Both the position numbers and the translations under genes were made by a program. The notes beneath the pieces were generated by a model that did no database searches, had not been told where the DNA came from, and saw only the letters and a list, made by a program, of their open reading frames with translations. Below are positions 6,129 to 59,229 of a DNA stretch of 64,000 nucleotides, piece after piece (the first letter of the stretch is position 1; every line of letters starts with the position of its first letter). Origin of the DNA: Maricaulis salignorans (GTDB lineage Bacteria; Pseudomonadota; Alphaproteobacteria; Caulobacterales; Maricaulaceae); the NCBI RefSeq assembly GCF_900103475.1, contig NZ_FNHG01000005.1, positions 62,001 to 126,000 on the forward strand, read 5' to 3'.

Positions 6129-6271
6129 CAGGTCCTCCACGATTTGACGCAGAGATAGGCCTTTGTTGTCCGGGCCGAAAGCCTGATCGCTGATGTTGGT
6201 CTGATTGCGGGGACGTGTATGCCGCACTTCCCGCTTTGCCTGGGCCCGGGGCCGCGCTGGCGGGAAGTGGA

Positions 6272-6584: not shown

Positions 6585-6674
6585 TCCTCATATGCGACGA
6601 TCGGTTAGGGTAGCCTGGCCAGGCGCGAAAGCTGAAAATGGCTCGTGCCAAGCACCACGAAGACACAAAGGGGT

Positions 6675-18420: not shown

Positions 18421-18472
18421 GGGTTCAACCCTGTTGGTAGGGAAACTGAGCAACCAGCCTAGTGAAGGAGTA

Positions 18473-29675: not shown

Positions 29676-30986
29676 ATGCGTGTTGCAATGATCGGGACGG
29701 GATATGTGGGCCTGGTTTCTGGTGCCTGCTTTGCCGATTTTGGCCATGAGGTCATTTGTGTCGACAAGAATGTCGAAAAGGTCGAGACGCTGCGCTCTGG
29801 CGGCATCCCGATTTATGAGCCTGGCCTGGACTTGCTGGTCCAGCGCAATGTCCGTGAGGGCCGTCTCAGCTTCACCGATGACCTGACCGAAGCCGTGCGC
29901 GATGCCGATGCGGTTTTCATCGCCGTCGGCACGCCGAGCCGGCGCGGGGATGGCTTCGCCGATCTGAGCTATGTCTATGCCGCAGCCCGCGAAATCGCGA
30001 GCGTCATGAATGGCTATACCGTGGTCGTCACCAAATCGACCGTGCCGGTCGGCACCGGTGATGAGGTCGAGCGCATTATCCGCGAAACCCGGCCTGACGC
30101 GGATTTTGCGGTTGTCTCCAACCCGGAATTCCTGCGCGAAGGCGCCGCGATTGACGATTTCAAACATCCTGACCGCGTCGTCGTCGGCACGGATGACGAG
30201 CGCGCCCGCACCGTCATGCACGATATCTACCGGCCGCTCTTCCTCAATGAGACCCCGATTGTCTTCACATCGCGGCGCACGTCCGAACTGATCAAATACG
30301 CCGCCAATGCCTTCCTCGCCCTCAAGATCACCTTCATCAACGAGATGGCGGATCTGTGCGAAGCGGTGGGCGCGAATGTGCAGGAAGTCGCGCGCGGTGT
30401 CGGTCTCGACAATCGCATTGGCGGCAAATTCCTGCATGCCGGCCCCGGTTATGGCGGCTCCTGCTTCCCCAAGGATACCCTGGCCCTGACGCGCACTGCG
30501 CAAGAATCCGGCGCCCCCCTGCGGCTGATCGAGACCGTGGTCGAGGTCAATGACGCCCGCAAGCGCTCGATGGCGAACAAGGTGATTGCCGCCTGTGATG
30601 GCGATGTCTCCGGCAAGACCGTCGCCGTGCTGGGCCTGACCTTCAAGCCCAATACGGATGACATGCGCGATGCGCCAAGCCTCGAGATCGTCCCGGCCCT
30701 GCAAAAGGCCGGTGCGCGCATCAAGGCCTTTGATCCGGCCGGAACCCTGGAAGCGGAAAAGCTCCTGACCGGCGTTGACTTCGTTTCGGGGCCCTATTTC
30801 TGCGCCGAGAATGCCGATGTCCTGGTGATCATCACCGAATGGAACGAGTTCCGGGCGCTGGATCTGGAACGGATCAAGTCGGTCATGCGTGCGCCGGTCA
30901 TTGTTGATTTGCGCAATATCTACTCACCGGAAGAAATGGCCAGCGCCGGCTTCGCCTATTCCAGTGTGGGACGGCCGACGGCCTGA
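29676..30986 (+). CDS. ugd: UDP-glucose 6-dehydrogenase
   Basis: 436 aa. The N-terminal Rossmann motif is GTGYVGLVSGACFADFGHEV, followed by STVPVGTGDE, SNPEFLREG, and the catalytic Cys263 in GGSCFPKDT. The C-terminal NAD/substrate part has LGLTFKPNTDDMRDAPS. It oxidises UDP-glucose twice to UDP-glucuronate, the substrate of the epimerase at 25.2 kb. AGGAGAA precedes the ATG. It is separated by 71 bases from the acyltransferase gene. Confidence 0.95.
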   Translation: MRVAMIGTGYVGLVSGACFADFGHEVICVDKNVEKVETLRSGGIPIYEPGLDLLVQRNVREGRLSFTDDLTEAVRDADAVFIAVGTPSRRGDGFADLSYVYAAAREIASVMNGYTVVVTKSTVPVGTGDEVERIIRETRPDADFAVVSNPEFLREGAAIDDFKHPDRVVVGTDDERARTVMHDIYRPLFLNETPIVFTSRRTSELIKYAANAFLALKITFINEMADLCEAVGANVQEVARGVGLDNRIGGKFLHAGPGYGGSCFPKDTLALTRTAQESGAPLRLIETVVEVNDARKRSMANKVIAACDGDVSGKTVAVLGLTFKPNTDDMRDAPSLEIVPALQKAGARIKAFDPAGTLEAEKLLTGVDFVSGPYFCAENADVLVIITEWNEFRALDLERIKSVMRAPVIVDLRNIYSPEEMASAGFAYSSVGRPTA

Positions 30987-35177: not shown

Positions 35178-35253
35178 CGATCGGCTCTTCATTCGGTGTT
35201 GGCGGGCGACCGCCCCGTTTATGTGCGGAGACGACCCGTTTCACGCTCGGATA

Positions 35254-38200: not shown

Positions 38201-41200
38201 ATGCAAAGTTTTCTGACGCGTATCCTGGGCCTGCTTTTGCGTTGGGCGGACTTTCGGTCCGCGCTGATTGACGTCCTGGGCGGTTCCGAAGACCAGGCTG
38301 TGCTGGATGCGGCTGTCGCGGCCCAGCCGGAGCGCGTTGCGGCCGTTCTGGCGCGCCCTGACCTGTCCGCCCGCGCGGCCGCCGCGCCGGGTCATGCCGA
38401 AGCCATCATGGCGCATATTCCGGACAGTCTGCTGCTCGACGCCTTGCGTCAGCGCCTTCCGGACTCCGCGACGATCTCGCCGCAATTGTCGAGCCCGCCT
38501 TTCCTCGACGCGCTGCTGGCCCGGCCGGACTGTGTCGCGCGTGTCATTGACCAGGCTGGCAGCCCCCTGATGCTTGAGGCCATGCGCGCGCGCATGGAGT
38601 CGGACATGGGGCTGACCTGGCAGCTGGTGAATGACCGCGTCCTGCGCAATCTGAGCGAGTCGACCCGCTTCGACGCCATCGCCGCCGAGGGGCTGGGACG
38701 TCCGGCCCTTCGCGAGGCGGTCAAACGCCGCCTGGCCGGCAATCCGGATTATGCGCGCTCGGTCCTGACGCGCGAGCAGTTGAGCCATGTCCTGGCTGAC
38801 CCGGTCTTCCTCGACGCGGCCGCCTCACGCCTCGATGACCCGGCCCTGGTCGATGCCGTCGCCCGCCGGGCCGGCGAGCATGCGCCCTATGCCCGCCATG
38901 TGATCGGCCTCGACGCCTTGCGTCACCTTTCAGCGGGTAAAGACCTCCAGACGATCATCGAGGAACGCCTCGATAGCCGCGAACTGGCCGGGCATATTGC
39001 CGGCCGGCTGGCGAAGGATGCTGCCTTCCGTGCCGCCATCCTGGGCGCCGACGTCTATGAAGCCGCGCACAAAGACCCGGAATTCCTCGACGCCGCGGCG
39101 GCGGCGATCCACAGCGCGCGGCTCATCCAGGCTGTCCGGCGCGCGGCGGCCGAAGACGTCGAATATGCCCGCCGGGTGATTGCCCCGAAGGCCCTGACCA
39201 GATTGGCCCACGATCCGGGCTTTATCGATGTGGTCACGGGGCTGGTCGGGCAGGATTACATGATCGATGCGGTCCGCGCCGCGATCACCGGCGACCCGGC
39301 TCTGCGCGCCCGGTTCATCGATGCCGAAATTCTCGAACATACGCGCGCCGCGCCTGACTTCCGGCGCGTTGCTGCGCTGGAAATCGGCAGCGACGAGCTC
39401 GCCGGTGCCATCCGCGCGGCGCTGGAAACAGATGCCGGATACCAGAGCCGGATCATCACCGGGGCTGTCCTGGAGGCGATGGCCGACAATCCGGTCTTCC
39501 TGGCGGCCGCCGCCCGCGCGATTGCCCACACGCCGGTCGTCGACGCCATTCGCGAGGCTGTGGCAACGGACGCGGATTATGCCCGCCGGATCATCTCGCG
39601 GGAGGCGCTCAACCGCGTGTCGGTGGACCCGGTCTTCGCCGACGTGGCGGCACAGCAGGTCGGCCGCGATTACATGATCGAGGCGGTGCGGGCCGCGATC
39701 ACTGCGGACCCGGCCTTGCGGGCCCGGATTATTGACGCGGACATTCTGGAGCACTTGCGCGGCACGCCTGAATTCCAGCGGGCCGCCGCCGGTGAGATCA
39801 GCAGTGCGGCGGCAGAGGGCGCCATCCGTGCGGCGCTTGAATCCGATGCCGGGTATCGTAGCCGTATCATCACTGAAACCGCCCTTGAAGCGATGGCCGG
39901 ATCTTCGGGCTTCCGGACGATCGCCGCAGGACAGCTCACGAGCGAACCTCTGGTGCGCGCCGTTCGTACGCTCCTGCTGGAGGATACGTCCTATGCGCGG
40001 GCCGTGCTGGACCAGGCTGTCCTGCGCAAGTCGAGAGACACAATGGCCTTCGTAACCGTCGCCGCCGGCTCGATCCGGGCGACCGGTGTGCAGCTGGCGA
40101 TCCAGCGATTGATGATGCGCGATCTGGAATACGCCCGCGTTCTGCTCAATGAAGAGATTATCGAGTCGGTCGCGGACGACACGATGGTGCTCGAGCCCGC
40201 TGCGCGGCGGATTGCCAGCGACCGGTTGGTTGACGCTGCGAAGCGTGCGCTGCGGGACGATGAGGCCTATGCGGCGCGCCTGCTGACGACCGAGATCCTG
40301 AAGGTTGTCGCCGATCGCAACGCATTCTCCAAAGCGACCCCGACCCTGCTTCGCGTCGGCGGTTTCCGGAACAGCGTGCAGCACGCGCTCGGTGATGAGC
40401 CGGTCCTTGCGGCCAAGCTCGCCGGCTCCCCGGCCGTCCTGTCGAACTTGCTGGATCAGCCGTGGAAAGGCAAAGGCAAGCTGCTCGATTTCACGGGGCG
40501 CGCCGCGACTGTCTGGCGATCACTGGAACGGATCTATGGCAAGGAAAGACTGGAAGAGGTCGCCGCGACTGTGGCCCCGCCTGAAAGGGGTTTCGGCCGC
40601 GAAACCGATGTGCGTGACTACATGCTTTCGCGGCTGTGCGAGGGCAATGTCATGCGTCTGCCGCACGGCGAGATCCAGTTCATCGACCGCCGCTCGCTCT
40701 GGACCCTCGTCAATGAAATCCTGATCGATGAGGAATACTACTTCCACAGCGACAAGCCGGACCCGGTGATCATCGATTGCGGTGCCAATTTCGGCATGTC
40801 CACGGTCTATTGGAAACTGCTCTATCCCGACGCAAAAATCACCGCCTTCGAGCCGATCGCGGAATATGCCGATCTGGTCAGGGCGAATGTCCGCCGCAAT
40901 GATTTCACCAATGTCGACGTGCACACGGCGGCCCTGTCCGACCATGGTGGCCAGGAGACCTTCTTCGTCTCCGAAGACCATTCCATGGCGGGCTCATTGA
41001 CCGAGCGGCGTACGGCGTTCGGCGATGCCATCCATGAGATCACGGTCGATACCGTGCGGCTCAGCGAGTACATCACCGGGCCGGTGGACTATCTCAAGCT
41101 GGATATCGAAGGCGCCGAGCCCAGGGTGCTGGCCGAGATCGAGCACAAGCTGAAATGGGTCGATCAGCTCACCATGGAGTGGCATATCGACCCGGACAAG

Positions 41201-41383
41201 ACGGCAGACGGCTTGTCCGAGGCCCTCGTCCGTCTGGAGCGGGCGGGCTTCGCCTACGGGGTGGCCAAGTCCTATAACTATCTCCGCGCGACCTCGCACC
41301 GGCCGATTTCGCACGTCTCCGGCGTCGGAACCTTCAATGTCTGGGCGATCAAGCGCGACAGCCTCAAGCGCTTCCGGGACTAG
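38201..41383 (+). CDS. FkbM-family methyltransferase with long 46-residue repeat domain
   Basis: 1060 aa. Residues 1-153 are a helical lead with less regular units. Residues 154-705 are twelve consecutive units of exactly 46 residues, each with the pattern (D/x)PxFxxxAA...LxxAxRxA...D..YARR(I/V)I...L. They predict helical pairs building a solenoid. Residues 752-1055 hold an FkbM methyltransferase: VIIDCGANFGMSTVYW (SAM motif I, about 855-870), ITAFEPIAEYADLVRANV, and VDYLKLDIEGAEPRVLAEI. FkbM enzymes O-methylate sugars or polyketides. ATG 38201 follows a weak ribosome site. The repeat domain may bind a glycan or partner glycosyltransferases; that is inference. Confidence 0.85.
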   Translation: MQSFLTRILGLLLRWADFRSALIDVLGGSEDQAVLDAAVAAQPERVAAVLARPDLSARAAAAPGHAEAIMAHIPDSLLLDALRQRLPDSATISPQLSSPPFLDALLARPDCVARVIDQAGSPLMLEAMRARMESDMGLTWQLVNDRVLRNLSESTRFDAIAAEGLGRPALREAVKRRLAGNPDYARSVLTREQLSHVLADPVFLDAAASRLDDPALVDAVARRAGEHAPYARHVIGLDALRHLSAGKDLQTIIEERLDSRELAGHIAGRLAKDAAFRAAILGADVYEAAHKDPEFLDAAAAAIHSARLIQAVRRAAAEDVEYARRVIAPKALTRLAHDPGFIDVVTGLVGQDYMIDAVRAAITGDPALRARFIDAEILEHTRAAPDFRRVAALEIGSDELAGAIRAALETDAGYQSRIITGAVLEAMADNPVFLAAAARAIAHTPVVDAIREAVATDADYARRIISREALNRVSVDPVFADVAAQQVGRDYMIEAVRAAITADPALRARIIDADILEHLRGTPEFQRAAAGEISSAAAEGAIRAALESDAGYRSRIITETALEAMAGSSGFRTIAAGQLTSEPLVRAVRTLLLEDTSYARAVLDQAVLRKSRDTMAFVTVAAGSIRATGVQLAIQRLMMRDLEYARVLLNEEIIESVADDTMVLEPAARRIASDRLVDAAKRALRDDEAYAARLLTTEILKVVADRNAFSKATPTLLRVGGFRNSVQHALGDEPVLAAKLAGSPAVLSNLLDQPWKGKGKLLDFTGRAATVWRSLERIYGKERLEEVAATVAPPERGFGRETDVRDYMLSRLCEGNVMRLPHGEIQFIDRRSLWTLVNEILIDEEYYFHSDKPDPVIIDCGANFGMSTVYWKLLYPDAKITAFEPIAEYADLVRANVRRNDFTNVDVHTAALSDHGGQETFFVSEDHSMAGSLTERRTAFGDAIHEITVDTVRLSEYITGPVDYLKLDIEGAEPRVLAEIEHKLKWVDQLTMEWHIDPDKTADGLSEALVRLERAGFAYGVAKSYNYLRATSHRPISHVSGVGTFNVWAIKRDSLKRFRD
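38660..40315 (+). repeat. Twelve in-frame tandem repeats of 138 bp (46 aa)
   Basis: Units start every 138 bases from 38660 (residue 154) without a single insertion or deletion. Example unit starts are DPEFLDAAAA, DPGFIDVVTG, APDFRRVAAL, NPVFLAAAAR, DPVFADVAAQ and TPEFQRAAAG. A higher-order copy is visible: the unit at residues 338-383 (from 39212) matches the one at 476-521 (from 39626) far better than its neighbours (DYMIDAVRAAITGDPALRAR against DYMIEAVRAAITADPALRAR). The next units also match, giving a 414-bp, three-unit duplication. Confidence 0.88.
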
Positions 41384-41524
41384 GCTCGGCACTGTTGCCG
41401 ACTGTGCAAATCCGGAGAATGAGCGTTCCAAATGGAACAAAAATTGCTACAAGAATTAGCATCGAACCACTAGCCGGTCGGTCGCGAGCGCGGCTTGGAT
41501 CGAAATCATTTCTGGGAGTCTGAC

Positions 41525-42094
41525 ATGTCGAAGGTCGATCACACATGGCTTGGTGATTATTTCAATAAGTACAAAGGCTTGATGTTCGACGAGCAGGTCT
41601 ATGGAAAATTGCTGGAATTCCACAAGCTGTGCCTGAGTGTTCGTGAGCGCGGCGGCAAGCTGATGTTTGCCGGCAATGGTGCCAGCGCTTCGATCTCGTC
41701 GCACGGGGCTGTCGACTTCACCAAGCAGGGGCGCGTGCGGGCGGTTGATTTCAACGAACCCAATCTCATCACCTGTTTCTCCAATGATTTCGGCTATGAA
41801 AACTGGATCGCCAAAGCGGTCGAGTTTTACAGCGACCCGGAAGACGTGCTGGTCCTGATATCCGTCAGCGGCAAATCCCCCAATGCGGTCAAGGCTGCCG
41901 AATATGCCAGGTCCAAGGGTATTCCCGTTGTCGCCTTCACCGGCTCGGGCGGCGATAATCCATTGCGTGGCATGGCGGAAATCGACTTTTGGGTCGATAG
42001 TCGCGCCTATAATATCGTCGAATGCATTCATATGGGTTGGCTCATGGCCGTGGTCGACATGCTTGTCGGTCAAGCCGAGTATCCTGTGAACTGA
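41525..42094 (+). CDS. GmhA-like SIS-domain phosphosugar isomerase
   Basis: 189 aa from ATG 41525 with GGGAG upstream; ten more in-frame codons lie before it. It is a single SIS domain: KLMFAGNGASASISSHGAVDF (residues 45-65), VLISVSGKSPNAVKAAEYA and IPVVAFTGSGG. This matches sedoheptulose-7-phosphate isomerase (GmhA) relatives, many of which sit in capsule or glycan loci and start the path to GDP- or ADP-heptose. No heptose kinase or nucleotidyltransferase follows, so the actual phosphosugar is uncertain. Confidence 0.8.
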   Translation: MSKVDHTWLGDYFNKYKGLMFDEQVYGKLLEFHKLCLSVRERGGKLMFAGNGASASISSHGAVDFTKQGRVRAVDFNEPNLITCFSNDFGYENWIAKAVEFYSDPEDVLVLISVSGKSPNAVKAAEYARSKGIPVVAFTGSGGDNPLRGMAEIDFWVDSRAYNIVECIHMGWLMAVVDMLVGQAEYPVN

Positions 42095-42149: not shown

Positions 42150-43031
42150 GTGTTATCCTGGAGTTCGGATATTTCACATCTGGAGCGGCTTGCGAGCTAT
42201 CTCCGTGTGAGGCGCGCGCGGGCGCGCTATTTTGAGACCTTGCGCCTGGATTTCAGCAAGGGCTTCCCCTTCACCACCCGCGATCCGGGCTATCAGGGCC
42301 GCATCGCGAAACTGTGGAACAAGCACAAGGGCAAGCGCGGCTTTGTGATCGGGAACGGTCCGAGCCTGGGGCAGATGGATCTGACCAAGCTCAAGGATGA
42401 GGTCACGATCGGGTCGAATGGCATCTTCCTGAAATTCAAGGAAATGGGTTTTCACACGACCTATTTCACCATGGAAGATATCCAGCAGGTGGAAGACCGG
42501 CGCGACCAGCTTGCCGAGGTCAAGGGGCCGGTCAAGATCTATGGTCTCCATAATTCCTACGCGATCAAGAAGGTCGATGAAGACACGCTTTTTGCGAATG
42601 TTGCCGTCGAGAGCTATCCGACCAAAAACCGTTGGAAGGAATTCTATCCGGGTTTCTCGACCGACTTCGCGAATATCGTCTATCTCGGCTCGACGATCAC
42701 CTACATCAATCTGCAACTCGCTTTCTTCCTCGGATTGAACCCCGTCTACATTATCGGGTGTGATCACAGCTACGGGCCGCTGGCGAAGGTCTATCCCCCC
42801 GGGAAGATCCGCATCACACCAGAGGTCTTTGAAATGCTCAAGGAAGCGCATTTCATCGACAATTATCACAAGGTGGGCGGCACGTTCGGCATCCCTTACG
42901 TCTCTTACCAGGAAGATGCCTACAAGCGCGCGCTTGAAGTCTTCCGCGGTTCCGGCCGCGAGGTGTTCAATGCGGGTGAGAACTCGAAACTGGACATCTT
43001 CCCCCGCGTCAATTTTGACTCCCTCTTCTAG
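42150..43031 (+). CDS. DUF115 / MptE-like (Maf-related) protein
   Basis: 293 aa from GTG 42150 behind GGGGGG. The central domain opens with GFVIGNGPSLGQMDL (GNGPSL at residues 68-73), then EVTIGSNGIFLKF and YIIGCDHSYGP. This is the DUF115/6-hydroxymethylpterin-diphosphokinase-MptE-like fold. The same domain is the core of Maf flagellin glycosyltransferases, and short members occur in surface-glycan loci of Campylobacter and others. Folate-type chemistry is unlikely here; a sugar transferase role fits the neighbours. The glycosyltransferase gene starts 18 bases after its stop. Confidence 0.78.
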   Translation: MLSWSSDISHLERLASYLRVRRARARYFETLRLDFSKGFPFTTRDPGYQGRIAKLWNKHKGKRGFVIGNGPSLGQMDLTKLKDEVTIGSNGIFLKFKEMGFHTTYFTMEDIQQVEDRRDQLAEVKGPVKIYGLHNSYAIKKVDEDTLFANVAVESYPTKNRWKEFYPGFSTDFANIVYLGSTITYINLQLAFFLGLNPVYIIGCDHSYGPLAKVYPPGKIRITPEVFEMLKEAHFIDNYHKVGGTFGIPYVSYQEDAYKRALEVFRGSGREVFNAGENSKLDIFPRVNFDSLF

Positions 43032-43049: not shown

Positions 43050-44339
43050 ATGCGCATCGTCCATCTCACCTATACTCTCCGCGGCGGCGCCGGCACGGCC
43101 TTGCGGCGTCACCACCTGGCTTTGCGAGACCAGGGTATTGATTCCCAGGTCGTGGTCGGTGAACCGGTCAAAGGGGACTCGCCCCATATCCATTGTCTGA
43201 AGGACCTGGTGGACGTTCCCGATGCGAAGGTCCGGACCTTTGAGGCCCTCGCGCGCCGCCATCAAAAGCGTGACGGCGCTGGCGATCTGTGGGCTGCACC
43301 GGAGAGTTTCGGTCTCAAGGATACGGACCTCGTCCGCTCGGCTGACATCGTCGAGGTGCGTCAGCTTCATGCCGGCGGGCACCGGCCTTTCTTCAACTTT
43401 CGGGCCCTTCGTGCGATCGCGCGCGAAAAACCGGTGATCTGGCGATTGTCGGATATGTGGGCCTTTACCGGCTATTGCGCCTATTCTCTGGAGTGTGAGC
43501 GCTGGCGGGACGGGTGTGGCCCATGTCCCCAGCTCACTGTCGAGCCGGAAAAAGCCGAATTGCGTCGCCCGGAGCGGGACAATTCCGCCATCATGTGGAA
43601 TGCCCGGCGCAAGGCCTTCAAGGGCGTGCCTTTCCATATGGTTTTTCCATCGGAATGGTTGCTTGAGAAGGCGCGCGTCAGCCTGCTCGAGCAGGCGGCA
43701 TCCTTTACCCATATTCCGGTCGGTGTAGATCTCAACGTGTTCAAGCGTTCGGCCAGCCAGGCGAACCGCGCCCGGTTTGATATTCCCAAGCCGAATTTCG
43801 TGATCGCCGCGGTCCTGTCCAATGCCAAGAACCACCGCAAGGCCTTCGACCTGTTCGCGGCAGTGGCGGGGCAGTTGCGGGAGAGACAGCGTACCAGCCT
43901 GGTGATCATCGGCAATGTCGGTGATCTGGAAGGCCATCCGGACTTTGAAGGGCTTCAGATCGTCAGCCCCGGTTTTGTCGGTGACGAAGCCGAGCAGGCG
44001 GCCATCCTGTCGACGGCCGATGCCTTCCTCTTCCCGTCACGATGCGATAATTCCGCCCAGGTTCTGCTGGAGTCGGCGGCGAGTGTCCTGCCCACCGTGT
44101 GTTTCGACGTCGGCGGCAATGCCGAATATGTGAAGGAAGGCGAGACCGGCCGCGTCATTGCCCCGTTTGACGTGGTCGCCATGTCGGCCGCAATCCAGGC
44201 CTATCGCGACGACCCGAAGCTGGCGAAGGCCCATGGCAAGGCCGCCCGGCGCTTCATGGGGGAGAACTGCTCGGTTTCGCTGCAGCGTCAGCGCTTCATG
44301 CAGTTGTACGAACAGGTGCTCTCGGGCGCGGCGCAGTAG
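43050..44339 (+). CDS. Glycosyltransferase family 4-like
   Basis: 429 aa. The GT-B fold shows an N-terminal MRIVHLTYTLRGGAGTALRR with the Gly-rich acceptor loop, then IWRLSDMWAFTGYCAYSLEC. The latter, with a Cys cluster (CERWRDGCGPCPQL), is typical of a WcaC/ExpE-like subgroup. The donor half has SFTHIPVGVDLNVFKR and FVGDEAEQAAILSTADAFLF, ending in the E-x7-E-like SRCDNSAQVLLESAASVLP. It likely adds a hexose or deoxyhexose to a lipid-linked glycan at the inner membrane. The last 44 bases overlap the convergent glycosyltransferase gene. Confidence 0.85.
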   Translation: MRIVHLTYTLRGGAGTALRRHHLALRDQGIDSQVVVGEPVKGDSPHIHCLKDLVDVPDAKVRTFEALARRHQKRDGAGDLWAAPESFGLKDTDLVRSADIVEVRQLHAGGHRPFFNFRALRAIAREKPVIWRLSDMWAFTGYCAYSLECERWRDGCGPCPQLTVEPEKAELRRPERDNSAIMWNARRKAFKGVPFHMVFPSEWLLEKARVSLLEQAASFTHIPVGVDLNVFKRSASQANRARFDIPKPNFVIAAVLSNAKNHRKAFDLFAAVAGQLRERQRTSLVIIGNVGDLEGHPDFEGLQIVSPGFVGDEAEQAAILSTADAFLFPSRCDNSAQVLLESAASVLPTVCFDVGGNAEYVKEGETGRVIAPFDVVAMSAAIQAYRDDPKLAKAHGKAARRFMGENCSVSLQRQRFMQLYEQVLSGAAQ

Positions 44340-48413: not shown

Positions 48414-49151
48414 TTGGGTCAACCGGCTTTTCAACTCGTGAGACGCGACATCCGCGCCCAATATGCCGGGTCGGGGCTCGGCCTCGTCTGGGCCTTGCTC
48501 GAACCACTCATCCTGGCGACCGCATTCATCTTCCTGCGCCATTCGGGCATGATCTCGATCGGCGATATCACCTTGCCGTACGCGGTCTATGCGGTGACCA
48601 GCCTGATGGTCTGGCAGACCTGCGTCGACGGTATCAATGGCGGGCTCAACTCAATCACCCGTATGCGTCCCCTGTTGAAGACGACGCAGGTGTCGGCGGG
48701 CTCGGTGGTCTGGGTCGTGATCCTGACCGCGTGCTTCTTCCATCTCTTCCGGCTTGTCGTGGCCCTGGGGGTCGCGCTCGCATTCGGCATTCACGACCCG
48801 GTCAATCTGATTGCCTACGGCCTGCTGTCATTCCTGGCGCCCTTCTTCGGCGTCGCGATCGGTCTGCTGGTGGCGCCCTTTGCAGAACTCTATCGCGATT
48901 TGAAGATCCTGGTCTCCTCGGCCCTGCGCCCGTTGCTCTTCGTCTCCGGCGTGATCATTCCCATCCCCGACCAATTCTCTTTTCTCGGGGTTTACAATCC
49001 GATAGCCGTCGCAATATCCACCGCTCGTGGTGCGCTTGTCGACGTGGGCCGGGTGGATTACGGTCTCGCCGGCCTCTGGCTGGCGATCATGTTCATTGTG
49101 TTCGCAATCGCGCTATTCATCTTCCGGCGCACGCTTAGAATCGTCTTGTGA
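48414..49151 (+). CDS. wzm: ABC-2 type polysaccharide export permease (Wzm/KpsM-like)
   Basis: 245 aa from TTG 48414, with AAAGGTG 5 nt upstream. After RRDIRAQYAGSGLGLVWALL (the conserved amphipathic start of Wzm/KpsM/TagG permeases) come six hydrophobic segments, with SGVIIPIPDQFSF and YNPIAVAISTARGAL in the last third. It forms the inner-membrane channel for a lipid-linked polysaccharide with the ATPase encoded 12 bases downstream. No outer-membrane exporter (Wza, KpsD) is in view. Confidence 0.88.
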   Translation: MGQPAFQLVRRDIRAQYAGSGLGLVWALLEPLILATAFIFLRHSGMISIGDITLPYAVYAVTSLMVWQTCVDGINGGLNSITRMRPLLKTTQVSAGSVVWVVILTACFFHLFRLVVALGVALAFGIHDPVNLIAYGLLSFLAPFFGVAIGLLVAPFAELYRDLKILVSSALRPLLFVSGVIIPIPDQFSFLGVYNPIAVAISTARGALVDVGRVDYGLAGLWLAIMFIVFAIALFIFRRTLRIVL

Positions 49152-49163: not shown

Positions 49164-50627
49164 ATGCCAATCATTTCTGCAACCGGGATATCCAAGAAAT
49201 ATTCCCTGCGCGATCAGCAGACACGCCGCCGGGGCCTGGGAGCCCTGTTCCGCGAAATCGTCGGGCCGGTTGAGGGCACATCAGATTCGGTCGCGCTTTC
49301 GGAAGGTGAATTCTGGGCTTTGCGGGATGTGGACCTCTCGGTCTCCTCGGGCGATACGCTCGGTGTCATCGGCCTGAACGGGGCCGGCAAAACGACGCTC
49401 ATGAGTTTGCTGGCCGGGGTGATCAAACCTGATACGGGCAGCGTCGTGCATAATGGCGATGTACAGGCCGTGCTGAGCCTGGGGGCGGGCATCAATGCGA
49501 AGCTGACCGGCCGGCAAAATGCCGAGAGCGGAGTTGCGCTGCGCGCCACCTCGGTCGAGCAGCGCGAGGAAATGATTGCGCGCATCGAATCCTTCTCGGA
49601 ACTCGGGGAATTCTTCGACAGTCCGGTTGGCTATTATTCCAGCGGTATGCGGGCGCGGCTCGGCTTTGCCATCTGTATCAGCGCGACGCCACAGGCGATC
49701 CTGATCGATGAGGCGCTCTCGGTCGGTGATGCGTCATTCAAACAGAAATGCCTGCTCTATCTTGAGCAATTGCGCCGCCGCGGCGTCGGTATGGTGATGG
49801 TTTCCCACTCGATGACGTCAATCCGGCAGTTCTGCGATTCCGCGATCTGGGTGCATGATGGCCAGATCCGTGCGCGCGGTCCGAGCGGCGAAGTGGTGCA
49901 TGAATACCTGCAATTTGTGGAACAGCGCCAGTCCAGCTCGCTGGCGACGCCGGCGCCGGCGAAGGAGGGGGACCGCCCGCTCCTTCCGGCCTCTGACCGC
50001 GCAGCTGCCACAGAGGCCAGCCCGATCAAGAGCGTGACGGGTACGGCTTTCAATGCTGCCGACCGCAGTCCGGCTGTGCGAACGCTGGGTCCGGTCGAGC
50101 GCGAGCTTCACCTGTCCGGTCAGCCGGGCGAATGGATCCGGCCGGACATTACCGCCACCGAGGTCAATGAATTATACGGCCGTCAGAGAGCCGAGCCGGG
50201 CGTCGATGAATTCGCCGCGGTCATGCTGGTCAATGGCCAGCCGACCAATGAGGTGCGCCCGCATGAGAGCGTGGAAATCGAATACCGCTTCCGGCTGCGC
50301 GAGCCGGCAGCCAATCTGAATGTATCGCTGGTCTTCCACAAGGAAGGCAGCGGCCGCCTGGCCACGATCTCGACGCTGAACAGGGATTTGCTCAAGGGGC
50401 TGGACACTGATGGACTGGTGCACTGCAAGGTGCGCGTTCCGGACATGGTCCTGGCGCCGGGCGATTATGTCGTCACCATCTCGATCCATGATGGCAAACC
50501 CTATTTGTGGCGCGATGTGATTTTGGCTTTCCGTGTCCGAACCTCCGACCTGCTGACCTGGGGCGATGTCAATCTGCCCTACAGCTATGAGGTCTATACG
50601 GCTGTTGATCAGGCTGATGCCGAATAG
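49164..50627 (+). CDS. wzt: Polysaccharide ABC exporter ATPase with C-terminal Wzt-like domain
   Basis: 487 aa. The ATPase domain (1-250) has Walker A GLNGAGKTT, signature YYSSGMRARLGFA, Walker B AILIDEALSVGD, and the N-terminal insert typical of TagH/Wzt. A linker of about 90 residues rich in Ala/Pro leads to a C-terminal domain (about 330-480) with HESVEIEYRFRL and APGDYVVTISIHDG, a beta-sandwich like Wzt-C. In the Wzt family this domain binds the finished glycan end and couples export to chain termination. So the polymer may carry a specific capping group, perhaps methyl or phosphate. The glycosyltransferase follows after 39 bases. Confidence 0.88.
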   Translation: MPIISATGISKKYSLRDQQTRRRGLGALFREIVGPVEGTSDSVALSEGEFWALRDVDLSVSSGDTLGVIGLNGAGKTTLMSLLAGVIKPDTGSVVHNGDVQAVLSLGAGINAKLTGRQNAESGVALRATSVEQREEMIARIESFSELGEFFDSPVGYYSSGMRARLGFAICISATPQAILIDEALSVGDASFKQKCLLYLEQLRRRGVGMVMVSHSMTSIRQFCDSAIWVHDGQIRARGPSGEVVHEYLQFVEQRQSSSLATPAPAKEGDRPLLPASDRAAATEASPIKSVTGTAFNAADRSPAVRTLGPVERELHLSGQPGEWIRPDITATEVNELYGRQRAEPGVDEFAAVMLVNGQPTNEVRPHESVEIEYRFRLREPAANLNVSLVFHKEGSGRLATISTLNRDLLKGLDTDGLVHCKVRVPDMVLAPGDYVVTISIHDGKPYLWRDVILAFRVRTSDLLTWGDVNLPYSYEVYTAVDQADAE

Positions 50628-52691: not shown

Positions 52692-53423
52692 ATGGCTGGT
52701 ATGGAGGACGTCAAGAGTTATTATGTATTCACGACGCACAAAGCGGCGTCGAGATTTATTGATGCCTTGATGCGAGACCTCGCAATCGGGACTGGACTGG
52801 AGCTGCACGCCCCTAAACATCCAGGCTTCCCGCGCGAGAAAGAACTCGAACTGGATCCAAGCAAGCTAAAAGTAGACGGTTTGATCGGCACGCTGAGATA
52901 TGCATTTTTGCCGCTTGATTTCGAAGATTCCAAAGTCGTGCTTCATCTCCGGGACCCCAGAGACGTTCTGGTTTCCCTGTTTTTCTCACATAAATACACG
53001 CACCGCCGTAGTAGTGAGGGATTCAACCCTTCGAACGACTCCTTGAGTGAGCTCGACAAGGGTATCGATAATTACGTTCTGTTTAGAGCGCCGCAGTATC
53101 TGGAGCGCTATAACTTCTATATCGACAAGATGCTCGGCCAGGAGAATGTGACCTTCTCCCGATACGAGGAGATGGTGCTTGATTTTGAAGGCTGGCTGCC
53201 GAAATTCCTTGAGCCATTCCCGCTGAAGAACCGCAAGGCCTTCATTGCCAAGCAAATGAAGAAGCGCGCCGCGCAATTCGATCTGGACGGTAGTGAGGAT
53301 GTGACGGCGCACAAGCGCAAGGCGGTTCCCGGCGACCACAAGGAGAAGCTGGCGCCTGAAACGATTGCGAAGCTGAACGAAATTTTCGCACGACCACTGG
53401 CCCGCCTGGAATACGATATCTGA
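52692..53423 (+). CDS. Sulfotransferase (PAPS-dependent)
   Basis: 243 aa, ATG with TTGGAGAG upstream. The 5'-phosphosulfate loop is FTTHKAASRF (residues 13-22), and the 3'-phosphate motif is VVLHLRDPRDVLVSLFF (about 81-97). The C-terminal KAVPGDHKEKL matches the R/K-x-G-x-x-GDWK element of cytosolic-type sulfotransferases. It would move sulfate from PAPS to a hydroxyl of a glycan or lipid. The first half is clearly less GC-rich and uses rare codons (AGA, AGT, ATA-type) compared with its neighbours, a sign of recent transfer. Confidence 0.82.
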   Translation: MAGMEDVKSYYVFTTHKAASRFIDALMRDLAIGTGLELHAPKHPGFPREKELELDPSKLKVDGLIGTLRYAFLPLDFEDSKVVLHLRDPRDVLVSLFFSHKYTHRRSSEGFNPSNDSLSELDKGIDNYVLFRAPQYLERYNFYIDKMLGQENVTFSRYEEMVLDFEGWLPKFLEPFPLKNRKAFIAKQMKKRAAQFDLDGSEDVTAHKRKAVPGDHKEKLAPETIAKLNEIFARPLARLEYDI

Positions 53424-53623
53424 TTGCCGGTGCAGGGCTGCGGCCCTCAAGTGTGGCGGATGTTTCGGGTCGCCTGAAAGGCCCGTCCTGAAGTCTCATT
53501 GGGGGCAGCCCTGTCGGGCAGTCCGCATCAAGACCGAGCTGCGGCTGGCCGGCACCGACCAGACCAAATCGCAGGCGGGGGCAGCGCCTGGCCGGCCTTA
53601 CCGCATTGCCACGAGGAAGATAG

Positions 53624-54319
53624 ATGAGCGCCGATCGCGATTACCTTCACCTTTTCAATCATATTCCAAAGACTGCAGGGACCGCGTTCAAGAAGTCCCT
53701 CCTGCGGAATGTCGGCGAAGAACGATTTCTGGATATCATTCATCCGGACAAGGCCAAGATCGACGAGACGCTGGCCGTCACGGATACCGGCAAGCTGAGC
53801 TGGATCTGCGCCAATTTTCACAACAAGCAGATTGAATCGCTGCGGCAATCTGACGGACGCGCCCTGAGGATTGTCACCATGCTGAGGCACCCGGTGCAGC
53901 GTGGCATGTCGCTGTACCGCTTCGTCCGCAACAAGAAGTCCCACGCGCTCTACAAGCGGATTTCAAAGATGGATCTGCTTGAATTTGCGCAGGATGATGC
54001 GCTCGATCGCCAGCTATCTGAATATTATACGCGCCGCTTTGGCGGGGGTTCATTCGACGATGCTGTCGCGCTGCTCAATCGTGACAAGCTGGTGGTCGGG
54101 ATCACCGAGGAGATGAGTTGCACCATGCGTGTGATCGCCCGGGTCACCGGTTTCTCCGATCTCGAAGTGCCTCACGCCAATGTCTCGAAGCAATTCTCCG
54201 AATTCGATGTGGATGAAGATCGTGTCGCCGAGGCGACACGGATCCTGGCCGGGAAAAATCCCCTGGATATTCGCTTGTACGAGCATTTCAGGGATGTGTT
54301 GCTCGAAGCTGAGGCGTAG
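53624..54319 (+). CDS. Sulfotransferase family 2-like
   Basis: 231 aa. The PAPS loop is FNHIPKTAGTAFKKSLL (residues 11-27), and the 3'-phosphate segment is IVTMLRHPVQRGMSLYRF (about 84-101). This is the carbohydrate (heparan/chondroitin-type) sulfotransferase pattern found in bacterial glycan loci and Nod-factor-like systems. It would sulfate a sugar, working with PAPS whose synthesis starts with cysD at the end of the window. It is not closely similar to the sulfotransferase encoded 200 bases upstream, so the two may act on different positions. The gap 53424-53623 shows only a small GC hairpin. Confidence 0.82.
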   Translation: MSADRDYLHLFNHIPKTAGTAFKKSLLRNVGEERFLDIIHPDKAKIDETLAVTDTGKLSWICANFHNKQIESLRQSDGRALRIVTMLRHPVQRGMSLYRFVRNKKSHALYKRISKMDLLEFAQDDALDRQLSEYYTRRFGGGSFDDAVALLNRDKLVVGITEEMSCTMRVIARVTGFSDLEVPHANVSKQFSEFDVDEDRVAEATRILAGKNPLDIRLYEHFRDVLLEAEA

Positions 54320-54763: not shown

Positions 54764-55447
54764 GTGACCCTTATTGCCATGATCCCGGCCCGTATGGGCA
54801 GCCAGCGGCTCAAGAAAAAGAATCTCGCACCACTGGCGGGTATTCCGCTGATCCGCCGGGCGGTTCGGCGGTGCCAGGCGGCCGGGTGTTTTGACCGGAT
54901 CATCGTCAATTCGGAGAATGTGGAATTCCGCGACCACGCGATCGCCGAGGGTGCCGAGTTTCACGAGCGCCCGGACTGGCTGGGCGGACATGATGCGACC
55001 AGCGAGGATTTCGTTGGTGAGTTCATGCGCGCTCATCCAAGCGAGCGGCTCTATCAGGTTCACTCCATCGCCCCGTTGGCTTCGGCCGACCATATCCGCC
55101 GGTTTGTCGAATTTGCCGAGGCGGGTGAGCTGGATACCGTGCTCAGTTGTGTCGAGGAGCAGATCGAGTGTGCCATAGCCGGCGAGCCGGTGAATTTCAC
55201 ATTCGATTCCAAGACCAATTCTCAGGATTTGCGCGCCCTGCAGCGTATCACCTGGAGTCTGACCAGCTGGACACCATCGATTTTTCTTGAGGCGCAAGAC
55301 GCTGGCCGGTGTGCGACCTATGCCGGGCGTGTGGGCATAATGCCCTTGGATCGCTGGTCCGGGCATGTCATCAAGACGCAGGAAGACTTGGATATTGCGG
55401 AGGCCTTGCTGAGCCATCTCGGCGACGGCCCGCAATTCGGCGGCTGA
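54764..55447 (+). CDS. NeuA-like acylneuraminate cytidylyltransferase family protein
   Basis: 227 aa from GTG 54764. The CTP loop is IAMIPARMGSQRLKKKNL (residues 4-21), followed by FDRIIVNSENVEF and HATSEDF-like HDATSEDFVGEF. The length and motifs match CMP-sugar synthetases (NeuA, PseF, PtmB, KdsB relatives). It would activate a keto acid sugar, such as sialic, legionaminic, pseudaminic or a novel acid, as its CMP ester. No NeuB-type condensing enzyme is in the window, so the acid is unknown. It opens a compact set of six genes to 60.0 kb. Confidence 0.82.
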   Translation: MTLIAMIPARMGSQRLKKKNLAPLAGIPLIRRAVRRCQAAGCFDRIIVNSENVEFRDHAIAEGAEFHERPDWLGGHDATSEDFVGEFMRAHPSERLYQVHSIAPLASADHIRRFVEFAEAGELDTVLSCVEEQIECAIAGEPVNFTFDSKTNSQDLRALQRITWSLTSWTPSIFLEAQDAGRCATYAGRVGIMPLDRWSGHVIKTQEDLDIAEALLSHLGDGPQFGG

Positions 55448-55490: not shown

Positions 55491-56525
55491 ATGGTATTGA
55501 AGATCGGGGTCGTCGGATTCGGCAAGATGGGGCGAATCCGCAAGGCGACACTTGATGCGCGCAGCGATGCACGTGTCGTTGCGCTGGCCGACCCCTATGC
55601 CGATATGTCTGACCAGCAGGGTGTCAGCCGTCACACCGACTGGGAAAAACTGCTCGAGGAAGACATTGATGCTGTCGTTATCAGTTGTACCAATGAGCTG
55701 ATCCCGACCGTCGCGGTGGCGGCACTGGCCAAGGGCATTCACGTCTTCTGCGAGAAGCCCCCGGGGCGCAATCCCCAGGATGTGCACCGCATTCGCGATG
55801 CGTCGCTGCAGCATCCCGAGCTGATCGTCAAATTCGGCTTCAATCACCGCTATCATGAATCCGTGGAGCAGGCGCGCCGCCTGGTTTCCTCGCAAAGCCT
55901 TGGTAAAATCCTCTGGATGCGGGGCGTCTACGGCAAGGCCGGCGGCCCTGAATTTGACAAGAACTGGCGCAATGAGCCCAGCCGCTCCGGTGGCGGGATC
56001 CTGCTGGATCAGGGCATCCACATGATCGATCTCTTCCATGATTTCTGTGGCACGTTCACGGAAGTGAAGAGTTTCGTGACCAGCCAGTACTGGAATATCC
56101 CGGTCGAGGACAATGCCTTCGCCCTGTTGCGCAATGATGAGGGACAGGTCGGTGTCATCCACTCTTCGGCCACCCAGTGGCGCCATACCTTCCGCCTCGA
56201 GATCTTCCTCGAGAAGGGGTTTCTGACCCTTGAGGGCATTCTTTCCTCCACCATGAGTTACGGCAAGGAGACCCTGATCGTCGCGCGCAATACGTTTGAC
56301 GAGAACGGCTATCCGCTGCCCAATCCCGAGGAGGTGATCAGCTTCTTCGCCGATGACCGCTCCTGGGAAAAGGAAATGACGGAATTCGTGACCTGCGCCC
56401 TGGCCGGCGACGCCATCAAGATCGGCACCGTGCAGCAGGCCGTGGATGCGATGGAAACGGTCTTCGCCATTTATGGCGCCGACAAGAGCTGGAACCAGTC
56501 CGGCGAGTGTGAGCAATCGGCATGA
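55491..56525 (+). CDS. Gfo/Idh/MocA-family oxidoreductase
   Basis: 344 aa. The N-terminal NAD(P) motif is GVVGFGKMGRIRKATL (residues 6-21). The EKPPGRNPQDVHRI segment (about 94-107) supplies the conserved Lys of the E-K-P motif, and the C-terminal half has GGGILLDQGIHMIDLFHDF with the catalytic D..H pair. Such enzymes oxidise or reduce sugar hydroxyls or keto groups. PtmF/NeuA-adjacent members occur in nonulosonate loci. Its stop overlaps the methyltransferase start (ATGA). Confidence 0.85.
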   Translation: MVLKIGVVGFGKMGRIRKATLDARSDARVVALADPYADMSDQQGVSRHTDWEKLLEEDIDAVVISCTNELIPTVAVAALAKGIHVFCEKPPGRNPQDVHRIRDASLQHPELIVKFGFNHRYHESVEQARRLVSSQSLGKILWMRGVYGKAGGPEFDKNWRNEPSRSGGGILLDQGIHMIDLFHDFCGTFTEVKSFVTSQYWNIPVEDNAFALLRNDEGQVGVIHSSATQWRHTFRLEIFLEKGFLTLEGILSSTMSYGKETLIVARNTFDENGYPLPNPEEVISFFADDRSWEKEMTEFVTCALAGDAIKIGTVQQAVDAMETVFAIYGADKSWNQSGECEQSA

Positions 56526-57526
56526 AAACTTCGGTTCTGATCGACGAAATGCGCCTCGCCGAGGTCCGCCCGGACCAGGTCGCCAAGCGTTACGAGGAAT
56601 TGCGCCGGGCTGAAGCGGCCCACCTGCTGCAAAACCCGTCGACGCGCTGGGTTGGCCGCGCCACGCCGACCCGGTCCTGCAAGCCGGGCCCGGCTTTCAT
56701 GTCTGATGGTCTGAGCTTCCATCACTGTCCCGATTGCGGCTCGATCTTCGCCTCGCCGGTCCCGGTGCAGGAAGAGCTGGACCGCCTGGCCCGCGATGGC
56801 GAGGCCGCCCGTTGGCGCCGCGATTATTTCGGTCAGCGGTTTTCGGAGAAGCAACGTCAGGCGATTCATGCGCCGATCGTTCGCTGGGCCCAGGAAGTGA
56901 TTGACGAATACGGCCTCACCGAACCGCGCACCGCTTTGGTTGGCAATGATGAAACCGGGCTCGCCACCTCGCTGAACGCCAATGGGCGGCTCGGCCAGAT
57001 GGTCCTGACCGAGCGCGTCTCGGGTCAGCCGGCGCCGGAAGGTGCGGTGGAGGTGGCGGCATCGGAACTCAGCGCCGCCGCTTTCGACCTGGTGTTCGAC
57101 ATGGGCTCGCTGGAGCGGGTTGCCGATCCGGAACGCCGCCTCGCGCTGTGGTCGGAACTGGTCGCGCCCGGTGGTTTCCTGGCGATCACCACCAGCATGG
57201 CCAGCGGGCTGGAATACCGGGTTCTGGGGCCCAAGGCCGCCAGCTTCATCGCCCTCGACCGGTTGACGCTCTATTCGGTTCCTGCCCTCACCGAACAACT
57301 CGCCCTGTTCGGCTTCGAAGTGGTCGAGTTCTCGACCCCGGGACGGCTTGATGTTGAAGTCCTCGAACAGGCCTTCGCCGATGGTGCGCCCTCGGATGAT
57401 CCGCTCGATTTCTGGACCCACGCACTCAAACATGGTGGCGAGGACTTCAAGACCGATCTGCAACGCCTGTTGCAGCAACACCGATTTTCATCCTTCGCGC
57501 GCGTGCTCGCCCGCAAGGTCGGCTGA
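56522..57526 (+). CDS. Divergent SAM methyltransferase-like protein with Cys motif
   Basis: 334 aa. Residues 50-75 contain Cys53 and HHCPDCGS (Cys69, Cys72), a zinc-ribbon-like element. The central part resembles Methyltransf_12 proteins: FDLVFDMGSLERVADPERRL and VAPGGFLAITTSMASGLEYR. Motif I, however, reads ALVGNDETGLATSL instead of the usual DxGCGxG, so SAM binding may be altered. The C-terminal helices (SVPALTEQLALFGFEVVEFS) are like sugar C- or O-methyltransferases of NDP-sugar pathways. It overlaps the oxidoreductase gene and precedes the dehydrogenase by 33 bases. Confidence 0.7.
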   Translation: MKTSVLIDEMRLAEVRPDQVAKRYEELRRAEAAHLLQNPSTRWVGRATPTRSCKPGPAFMSDGLSFHHCPDCGSIFASPVPVQEELDRLARDGEAARWRRDYFGQRFSEKQRQAIHAPIVRWAQEVIDEYGLTEPRTALVGNDETGLATSLNANGRLGQMVLTERVSGQPAPEGAVEVAASELSAAAFDLVFDMGSLERVADPERRLALWSELVAPGGFLAITTSMASGLEYRVLGPKAASFIALDRLTLYSVPALTEQLALFGFEVVEFSTPGRLDVEVLEQAFADGAPSDDPLDFWTHALKHGGEDFKTDLQRLLQQHRFSSFARVLARKVG

Positions 57527-57559: not shown

Positions 57560-58474
57560 ATGACCAAAGGCAAGATCCTCCTTGGACCGTCGAGCTTCGG
57601 CGCCGCAAGCCCGGCGCCCGTCGACCTGTTGCAAGCGGCCGGCTATGAGATCGTCGACAATCCGTTCAAACGGCGTCTGACGCGCGAGGAGTTGCTGGGT
57701 CTGCTGCCGGGGATCAAGGGTCTGATCGCCGGCCTTGAGCCTCTTGATCGCGGTGTTCTCGAGCAATCCGAACTGAAGGCTCTCTCCCGTGTCGGCTCCG
57801 GCATGTCGAATGTGGACATGCCCGCGGCCCAGGCTCTCGGCATTCATGTCTCCAGCACACCGGACGGGCCGACCCTCGCTGTCGCCGAGCTGACGGTCGG
57901 CTGTTTGATGAATCTTCTGCGCCAGACCTCGGCCATGGACCGCGCCATGCGGACCGGCGAGTGGGACAAGCGCATGGGCCGCCAATTGCGCGATCTGACG
58001 ATTGCCATTGTCGGCTATGGCCGGATCGGCCGGAAAACCGGCGAGCTTTTCTCCGCGCTCGGCGCAAAGATCCAGATTGTCGACCCGTTTGTCGACGCGG
58101 CCAGCGTCTCGGCGCCGGTGGTCTCGCTGGAACAGGCCCTGGAAGGCGCTGATGCCATCGCCCTGCATGCCAGTGGCGAGACCTGCATCATCGATGCGGC
58201 GGGCTTCGGGCGTATGAAGCCGGGCATGTTCCTGCTCAATGCGGCGCGCGGCGAACTGATCGATTATGATGCCCTGTTCGCGGCACTCGCCGATGGCCGG
58301 GTGGCCGGTATCTGGGCGGATGCGCATCCGCAAGAACCCTATAAGGGCAAGCTGCTCGAATTTGATCAGGCCTTGCTGACCCCGCATATCGGTTCCTACT
58401 CCCTGGAGGGGCGTATCCAGATGGAACTCGACGCGGCGCAAAACCTGCTCAACGATCTCGAAAAGGCATCCTGA
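57560..58474 (+). CDS. D-3-phosphoglycerate dehydrogenase-like 2-hydroxyacid dehydrogenase
   Basis: 304 aa. NAD-binding GYGRIGRKTGELFSALG (about residues 153-169), catalytic Arg in LLNAARGELIDYDAL, and the Glu/His pair in HPQEPYKGK and LTPHIGSYS are all present. There is no ACT or regulatory domain, so it is shorter than serine-pathway SerA (about 530 aa in Alphaproteobacteria). It probably works on a pathway acid, such as a phospho-hydroxy acid, rather than in bulk serine synthesis. The stop touches the phosphatase start (ATG 58474). Confidence 0.85.
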   Translation: MTKGKILLGPSSFGAASPAPVDLLQAAGYEIVDNPFKRRLTREELLGLLPGIKGLIAGLEPLDRGVLEQSELKALSRVGSGMSNVDMPAAQALGIHVSSTPDGPTLAVAELTVGCLMNLLRQTSAMDRAMRTGEWDKRMGRQLRDLTIAIVGYGRIGRKTGELFSALGAKIQIVDPFVDAASVSAPVVSLEQALEGADAIALHASGETCIIDAAGFGRMKPGMFLLNAARGELIDYDALFAALADGRVAGIWADAHPQEPYKGKLLEFDQALLTPHIGSYSLEGRIQMELDAAQNLLNDLEKAS

Positions 58475-59229
58475 TGGCGGCGTCCGGCGACCTGCGCGCC
58501 ATCCTCGCGGCCGCCGAAGATGCGGCTCGTGCAGCCGGTCAGGCCTTGCGTAAGGGGGGCGGAGCCTTTGAGGGTGTCGAGCGTTCCGAGGGGCGGGACA
58601 TCAAGCTGAATGCCGATCGTGCCGCTGAACGCCTGATCATTGACCGTCTGACAGCCCTGATGCCCGCGCCGATCCTGTCCGAGGAAACCGGCTGGACGGC
58701 CGAGGCGGGCGACAAGGTCTGGGTCGTCGATCCGCTCGATGGTTCGGCGAATTACAACCGGAATATCGATCTGTGCAGCGTCTCGATCGCCTGGGTCGAG
58801 AATGGCCGACCGGTCGCGGGTGTCATCTATGAATTCCTCAGCGACCGCCTTTATAGCGGCGCGATCGGCCTGGGCACGCGCCTCAATGGCGAGCCCGTCA
58901 GCGTCGCCGGTCACACCCGTACGCAGGACTCGATCCTGTTCACCGGGCTCGCGATCAACCGTGATTTCAGCGCCGAAGCCCTCGGCGCCTTCGCCGCCGG
59001 TTTCGCGTGCTGGAAAAAAGTCCGGATGATCGGATCCGCCGCAACCTCGCTGGCCTATGTCGCCCGGGGTGCTGCGGATGCCTATTTCGAGGACTCCATC
59101 ATGTTCTGGGATGTTGCAGCCGGATGTGCGCTGGTCGAGGCGGCTGGTGGCCGGGTCTCGATCGTCGGAGATTCAATGGACAAGCCCGTCAGCGTGCATG
59201 CGGATAATGGCAAGCTCTGGACCCTTTGA
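58474..59229 (+). CDS. Inositol monophosphatase-family phosphatase
   Basis: 251 aa. Metal motifs are LSEETGW (68-74) and VVDPLDGSANYNRNID (84-99), with FWDVAAGCALVEAAGG at about 210-225. This is the general SuhB/CysQ-like family, which removes phosphate from sugars, inositol or nucleotides. In its setting it may dephosphorylate the product of the dehydrogenase next to it. CysQ (3'-phosphoadenosine 5'-phosphate breakdown) is an attractive alternative because two sulfotransferases are in the locus, but the sequence alone does not decide. It overlaps the next gene by 23 bases. Confidence 0.83.
   Translation: MAASGDLRAILAAAEDAARAAGQALRKGGGAFEGVERSEGRDIKLNADRAAERLIIDRLTALMPAPILSEETGWTAEAGDKVWVVDPLDGSANYNRNIDLCSVSIAWVENGRPVAGVIYEFLSDRLYSGAIGLGTRLNGEPVSVAGHTRTQDSILFTGLAINRDFSAEALGAFAAGFACWKKVRMIGSAATSLAYVARGAADAYFEDSIMFWDVAAGCALVEAAGGRVSIVGDSMDKPVSVHADNGKLWTL

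Follow-up and report, generated by a model that had tools for sequence, protein, structure and literature searches.

Repeat array and methyltransferase in one gene

One gene of a glycan cluster in Maricaulis salignorans encodes an FkbM-type methyltransferase preceded in the same frame by a long row of 46-residue repeats; the enzyme's closest relatives have no such repeat, and part of its gene company is found again in a distant genome. The gene lies in a 64,000-nucleotide stretch of contig NZ_FNHG01000005.1, here called the window, whose coordinates are used throughout (Table 1). The fusion is real, statistically solid, and unusual. The reading that we favor, with moderate confidence, is that of an FkbM O-methyltransferase from a surface-glycan cassette to which a lineage-specific helical solenoid would have been added as scaffold or spacer.

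Table 1. Coordinates of the repeat-FkbM gene, its parts, and the glycan genes downstream of it in the window (L016 and L061 are stretches of one Desulfovibrio MAG contig).
Feature	Position	Strand	Basis
Whole gene: repeat solenoid and FkbM methyltransferase	38201..41383	+	ORF listing, translation, 1060 aa
Strongly amphipathic N-terminal helix, possible membrane anchor (residues 1-18)	38201..38254	+	Hydrophobic moment
Two degenerate in-register units (residues 48-139)	38342..38617	+	Profile scores 11.5, 12.9
Twelve supported 46-residue units (residues 140-691)	38618..40273	+	Autocorrelation, gap-free alignment, shuffles, leave-one-out HMM
Degenerate unit (residues 692-737)	40274..40411	+	Not significant by leave-one-out
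FkbM-type methyltransferase with its own N-terminal region (residues 746-1060)	40436..41380	+	PF05050, TIGR01444, Desulfovibrio alignment
SIS-domain protein, cassette partner	41495..42094	+	Pfam; 41% in L016
MptE-like protein, cassette partner	42150..43031	+	Pfam; 31% in L016
Glycosyltransferase (group 1)	43050..44339	+	Pfam; relatives with 24-28% identity at 4/10 other FkbM places
Wzm-like ABC-2 permease	48414..49151	+	PF01061
Wzt-like ATPase with Wzt_C domain	49164..50627	+	PF00005, PF14524 (E 7.2e-11)
Two sulfotransferase genes (52692-53423, 53624-54319)	52692..54319	+	Pfam
CTP_transf_3 cytidylyltransferase, cassette partner	54764..55447	+	42% in L016
GFO/IDH/MocA oxidoreductase, cassette partner	55491..56525	+	40% in L061
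Second methyltransferase, rival cap-enzyme candidate	56522..57526	+	PF13489, 28.1 versus 27 bits
2-Hydroxyacid dehydrogenase, cassette partner	57560..58474	+	51% in L061
Inositol monophosphatase family (IMPase), cassette partner	58474..59229	+	41% in L016

The period of the array is strict. BLOSUM autocorrelation over residues 21-735 scores 1.11, 0.84, 0.80, and 0.61 at lags 138, 92, 46, and 184, with -0.32 as the next best value among lags 5 to 199, and within residues 140-737 lags 46, 92, and 138 score 0.94, 1.05, and 1.38, where the highest value reached by 1000 shuffles (lags 20 to 199) is -0.24. Cut every 46 residues, 13 consecutive units align without any gap. Twelve of them score above all of their own scored shuffles (280 to 300 each) in a leave-one-out HMM, the unit at residues 232-277 by a small margin (11.4 versus 8.8 bits), while the thirteenth, residues 692-737, fails (6.7 versus 8.0 bits). 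The original prediction of twelve 46-residue repeats free of indels is borne out by these 12 supported units. It had called them exact, which is right for their length and wrong for their sequence: pairwise identity among the units is 13 to 65% in protein and at most 69% in DNA. The span that it gave, 38660-40315, corresponds to residues 154-705 and leaves out the methyltransferase and the N terminus. Stretches starting at residues 48 and 94 stand in exact register with the units; all other starts ahead of residue 140 score -7.4 or less by the repeat profile, whose background (starts after residue 760) has a mean of -41 and a maximum of -16.2. With these two stretches and residues 692-737 counted beside the twelve clear units, the array may comprise up to fifteen.

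A three-unit block, residues 324-461, is duplicated as residues 462-599 (57% protein and 65% DNA identity), and the strongest period, lag 138, is in keeping with this duplication. Between the two blocks, identity is lowest at third codon positions (0.50 versus 0.72 and 0.74), as would be expected under purifying selection. Its restriction to one species could suggest that the gene arose by a recent chance fusion, or carries a decaying insert, and that the extra part has no function; but the units have diverged as far as they have in DNA with neither an indel nor a stop, and the codon-position pattern fits selection on the protein, so that we consider such an origin very improbable. An assembly artifact was also thought unlikely, given the single open frame and third-position GC of 0.79 in the repeat versus 0.81 in the enzyme part.

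Fold of the repeat unit and its possible relatives

The hydrophobic columns of the unit (3/4, 8/9, 12, 18, 21/22, 26, 31, 34/35, and 39) fit amphipathic helices, and Pro or Gly is most frequent in column 16 (7 of 12 units), followed by columns 24 and 27 (4 each). An AlphaFold model of three units, built with four non-overlapping three-unit fragments as a pseudo-alignment, is weak (mean pLDDT, 46) and helical; its helices at residues 47-53, 56-62, 66-75, and 79-91 recur at 93-99, 102-108, 112-121, and 125-137, which is again a 46-residue period. Overlapping six-unit fragments were dropped as input because MAFFT aligned them by identity. In a full-length model made with one relative, likewise weak (mean pLDDT, 41), the repeat region is also helical. 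The FkbM part of this model has a pLDDT as low as that of most of the repeat, and the low values in the repeat therefore probably reflect a shallow alignment rather than disorder. Disorder had been named in the original prediction as the alternative to a solenoid; by the charge-hydropathy rule, all five segments tested are predicted to be ordered. We infer that the array is probably a helical solenoid. Its units are tandem and probably helical, like those of Armadillo, HEAT, and TPR alpha-solenoids; unlike in those, no sequence family matches above its cut-off, and a Foldseek search with the low-confidence model gave a best E of 0.58, with nothing at 0.001. Beta-catenin armadillo repeats make up 22 of the best 50 of its 142 matches, which are non-significant and serve as a lead only.

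Sequence libraries give a similar picture. The repeat has no match in Pfam at E up to 10 and none in a PDB sequence search, and the best hint at a known relative is the NCBIfam model TPR_END_plus (NF047558), which, with the repeat region alone as query, reaches 30.0 bits (E 3.8e-7) over 39 residues (489-527) and stays under its curated cut-off of 32 bits. A TPR-like origin of the repeat is thus possible, and the array could be a diverged protein-binding domain of TPR type, an ordinary accessory without any special glycan role. For this reading, the reversed control of the same search was empty. The match is nevertheless confined to one stretch and drops to 22.5 bits (E 7.8e-5) with the whole protein as query, the column-shuffled control also yields chance matches to two unrelated models (E 8e-4 and 0.0023), and Pfam is silent; we regard it as decidedly improbable. 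Matches of the repeat region in PHROGs (best E 0.0035, function unknown) were set aside as weak. A defined domain family with this period, which had been named as a possible refutation, is absent above curated cut-offs, though the TPR_END_plus match may point to a known relative.

The repeat appears to be confined to this genome. In scans with a profile of the 13 units, the genome of origin was the sole match in the family (137 genomes), the class (385), and the phylum (299); these sets and that of the order overlap, and the order, class, and phylum scans scored 17 to 23 first-look candidates per genome, a depth at which distant or rare copies could escape. Among 398 genomes of the order there were four with matches, the genome of origin and three with partial, weak ones (E 1.5e-4 to 9.9e-4) that cover no more than 32 of the 46 positions. 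These three were judged to be chance after inspection of their ORFs, by eye a CoA transferase, a UbiG-type methyltransferase, and a frame antisense to a response-regulator-like ORF. The HMM search with the 46-residue unit that the original prediction had proposed thus finds, within these genome sets, convincing units only here, and no repeat elsewhere without FkbM. The 766-residue N-terminal part, used as a query against 199 genomes (best five candidates per genome scored), likewise found only its own genome, in which the 1060-aa protein has a single match. No relative turned up in scans of viruses, whether the query was the whole protein or its FkbM part; the sole tblastn match among phages (1 of 1) covers the FkbM part, and the best 20 of 33 plasmid matches listed are to the FkbM part only. 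Because the fusion occurs in one species and one genome per species was surveyed, conservation is uninformative on the importance of the solenoid. A literature search, with most subscription papers outside its reach, did not find a fusion of FkbM to a repeat or solenoid. Among plasmid records, a UDP-glucose dehydrogenase-like protein encoded elsewhere in the window (29676-30986) is closest to Azospirillum (72%).

The enzyme part and its relatives

The catalytic part is a complete, ordinary FkbM-type methyltransferase by its domain matches. Both family models match above their cut-offs: PF05050 at residues 859-1017 (E 1.1e-12, 48.8 versus 22.7 bits) and TIGR01444 at residues 856-995 (E 3.1e-25, 89.3 versus 37.7 bits), the latter over model positions 1-143 of 143, and the SAM-type motifs DCGANFG, FEP, and LDIEGAE can be read in the translation. 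The original prediction was therefore right to place an FkbM methyltransferase behind the repeats. PF05575, the family of the Vibrio O-antigen methyltransferase RfbT, matches residues 852-980 at 24.6 bits, below its cut-off of 27.9. RfbT methylates the terminal O-antigen sugar, and we know of no repeat in it; the sub-threshold match mildly favors a capping role.

The closest relatives of this enzyme lack the extension. A stand-alone protein of 322 residues from a Desulfovibrio MAG aligns with residues 746-1037 (36% identity over 306 columns, with the identical run NEILIDEEYYFHSDK), which places the boundary between solenoid and enzyme near residues 738-746. It belongs with two others, L020 (43% over residues 832-1022) and L021 (40%), to the nearest relatives, all in frames of 322 to 413 residues. 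In the class survey, the whole protein as query found 40 of 385 genomes at E 1e-8, its own included; all 44 other rows (best two or fewer first-look candidates per genome) lie within residues 781-1032, so none of them touches the repeat. Comparable periodicity was not found in the FkbM ORFs of L016, L074 to L080, L020, L024, L031 (two ORFs), L033, and L044, whose best lag scores (lags up to half the length or 199) are -0.47 or lower, versus +0.33 for the whole window protein. The expectation that FkbM proteins are usually of ordinary size and without a solenoid holds for these closest relatives. The window protein resembles its family (PF05050, TIGR01444) in its complete domain, SAM-type motifs, and glycan neighborhood and differs from its repeat-free nearest relatives in the roughly 740 residues that precede the enzyme.

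The glycan cassette in the window and in distant bacteria

The FkbM gene is followed on the same strand by the SIS, MptE-like, and glycosyltransferase genes, with gaps of 111, 55, and 18 bases. GDP-sugar genes on the opposite strand lie between this glycosyltransferase and Wzm; after Wzt come another glycosyltransferase and a glucosamine-6-phosphate isomerase family protein, and GlmS-like and DegT-type proteins are listed after the IMPase. Just past the window are CysN/C- and CysQ-like genes (L055, 208-2103 and 2183-3409), by eye a PAPS supply, which together with the two sulfotransferases make it probable that the glycan is sulfated. On the other side, the FkbM gene adjoins a tandem pair of genes for acyltransferase-SGNH proteins (845 and 844 residues; 32655-35192 and 35254-37788, minus strand).

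Much of this company recurs around the Desulfovibrio relative. A 36-kb stretch of its contig (positions 4000-40156, composed of L061, L016, and L062; 1-3999 lie outside it) holds FkbM (36%), CTP_transf_3 (42%), SIS (41%), IMPase (41%), MptE (31%), GFO (40%), and 2-HADH (51%) together, with no match to Wzm or Wzt. At L074, FkbM stands with MptE, SIS, GFO, and a 2-HADH that is truncated where the fetched stretch stops. Neither Wzt nor Wzm was found at 1e-5 in the fetched surroundings of FkbM at any of 10 places in other genomes, namely, 8 of 11 matches (L016/L061 and L074 to L080) and the best 2 of the 44 class rows (L059 and L060), of which L060 and L077 are short contigs. Relatives of the adjacent glycosyltransferase adjoin FkbM or are fused to it at four of these places (L075, L076, L078, and L080), following FkbM in the same frame at L078 and L080. 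From the surroundings of L016/L061 and L074 and the periodicity tests, FkbM relatives thus occur with the cassette, without Wzt nearby, and without repeats. Since the closest relatives lack repeats and the cassette is shared with the Desulfovibrio MAG, the FkbM enzyme would be a conserved member of a glycan cassette and the solenoid a lineage-specific addition. A cassette of FkbM with a cytidylyltransferase, an SIS domain, and an inositol monophosphatase was not found in the literature search.

Two ORFs at these places are of separate interest. At L016, an 845-residue ORF (5449-7986) shares 10 bases with the beginning of the stand-alone Desulfovibrio FkbM ORF; its C-terminal half is helical and TPR-like-looking by eye, it matches nothing in Pfam at E up to 10, and it is possibly a separate solenoid partner of that enzyme. 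The FkbM ORF at L074 (9593-11209, 539 residues) has a second methyltransferase-like domain at its C terminus, again by eye.

Possible roles of the solenoid

From its family and its neighbors, the substrate of the FkbM enzyme would be a sugar. The catalytic part, presumably cytoplasmic, may do the same job as its stand-alone relatives, that is, SAM-dependent O-methylation of a sugar that the cassette makes or transfers, to which the cytidylyltransferase, SIS isomerase, IMPase, GFO and 2-hydroxyacid dehydrogenases, MptE-like protein, and glycosyltransferase would contribute. Alpha-solenoids elsewhere act as scaffolds, and by this analogy the most likely role of the array is that of a scaffold or tether: 12 to 15 ARM/TPR-like helical units of 46 residues could form a rigid scaffold and spacer, keeping the enzyme close to the membrane, to co-encoded transferases, or to both. 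The row of repeats would then probably position the enzyme on a surface-sugar assembly line.

The original prediction, in which the solenoid could read glycan length and the nearby Wzt-like ATPase would sense a methyl cap, is supported in part, and a more specific proposal of this kind starts from chain terminators of the WbdD type. The accessible text of PMC11231755 describes a coiled-coil ruler, a long spacer that separates the catalytic sites from a part bearing a membrane-associated amphipathic helix, and that of PMC9445017 describes methyl caps recognized by the carbohydrate-binding domain of Wzt. By analogy, an N-terminal amphipathic helix of the window protein would sit on the membrane, the solenoid would serve as a ruler of fixed length, the methyltransferase at its far end would cap the lipid-linked polymer when this has grown long enough, and the C-terminal domain of Wzt would recognize the cap and export the chain. 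The Wzt-like ATPase that the original prediction had noted nearby does carry a Wzt_C domain and stands with Wzm in the same cluster, and the window protein, like WbdD, joins a methyltransferase to a long, probably helical extension. Residues 1-18 have the largest hydrophobic moment of all 18-residue windows in the protein, and the sub-threshold RfbT match points the same way. But Wzt lies 7.8 kb downstream with opposite-strand genes between, the cassette occurs elsewhere without it (at none of the 10 FkbM places, including the Desulfovibrio relative with its six other window genes, was Wzt or Wzm in the fetched stretches), and the second methyltransferase of the cluster could equally be the cap enzyme. 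The start codon is uncertain as well, because the ATG has no clear ribosome site by eye, and residues 1-18, with a charge-weighted discriminant of 0.85, are outscored on that measure by at least 15 windows that are more basic and less hydrophobic. The rulers described in the accessible text of PMC11231755 are coiled coils and the catalytic part of WbdD is N-terminal, whereas here it is C-terminal and of FkbM type, follows a 46-residue repeat, and comes with no matched kinase domain. We therefore consider a WbdD-like terminator unlikely. Some likeness is also seen in the description of the Klebsiella O4 terminator ORF7 (GT137), which in PMC11231755 has a TPR-like helical bundle beside its catalytic part; ORF7 is a Kdo transferase with a coiled coil.

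A ruler stays among the rivals because the gene combines similar elements, although their order differs and their fold probably does too. In its strongest form, the orphan 46-residue alpha-solenoid, as opposed to a coiled coil, would be anchored by the N-terminal amphipathic helix and act as a second, independently evolved length ruler, fixing the point on the growing chain at which the FkbM enzyme puts the cap read by Wzt; this we hold to be distinctly unlikely. Were it so, length control by a spacer would have arisen more than once.

The surface of the array suggests a further possibility, that a basic ladder binds an anionic, sulfated glycan or an acidic partner and so makes methylation processive. 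Nine of the 12 units have Lys or Arg in column 36 (Bonferroni p 5e-5), and the sulfotransferases and PAPS-type genes suggest sulfation. However, Asp occupies column 42 in 10 of the 12 units, column 7 is acidic in 7 of 12, and residues 140-737 carry a net charge of about -10; given these acidic columns, the basic residues may simply form salt bridges, and a glycan-binding ladder seems to us improbable.

For the favored scaffold or spacer, the number of units would offer a clean knob, at 46 residues per step, for setting the distance of the enzyme from the membrane or a partner against control of the polymer. Even as a plain scaffold, the array would be a repeat that none of the libraries searched covers above cut-off, joined to an enzyme whose nearest relatives have the usual length. 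The gene also draws attention to a seven-gene cassette common to distant bacteria.

Variation of the locus within the genus

Of 19 genomes of the genus, just two, that of M. salignorans included, have matches to Wzt (E 1e-40) and MptE (E 1e-10). In the other, G010, a contig (C62, L053/L054) that starts in a GlmS-like gene (69% identity) carries Wzm, a Wzt matching in its ATPase part alone, a 2-HADH, and an MptE-like domain in a 792-residue frame with, by eye, glycosyltransferase-like parts; this locus has no match to the repeat or FkbM parts. A comparison of the two genomes suggests that a variable polysaccharide locus has likely been exchanged at one site beside the GlmS-like gene. Farther upstream in the window, a pentapeptide-repeat protein with ten matched stretches is encoded on the minus strand (17119-18453).
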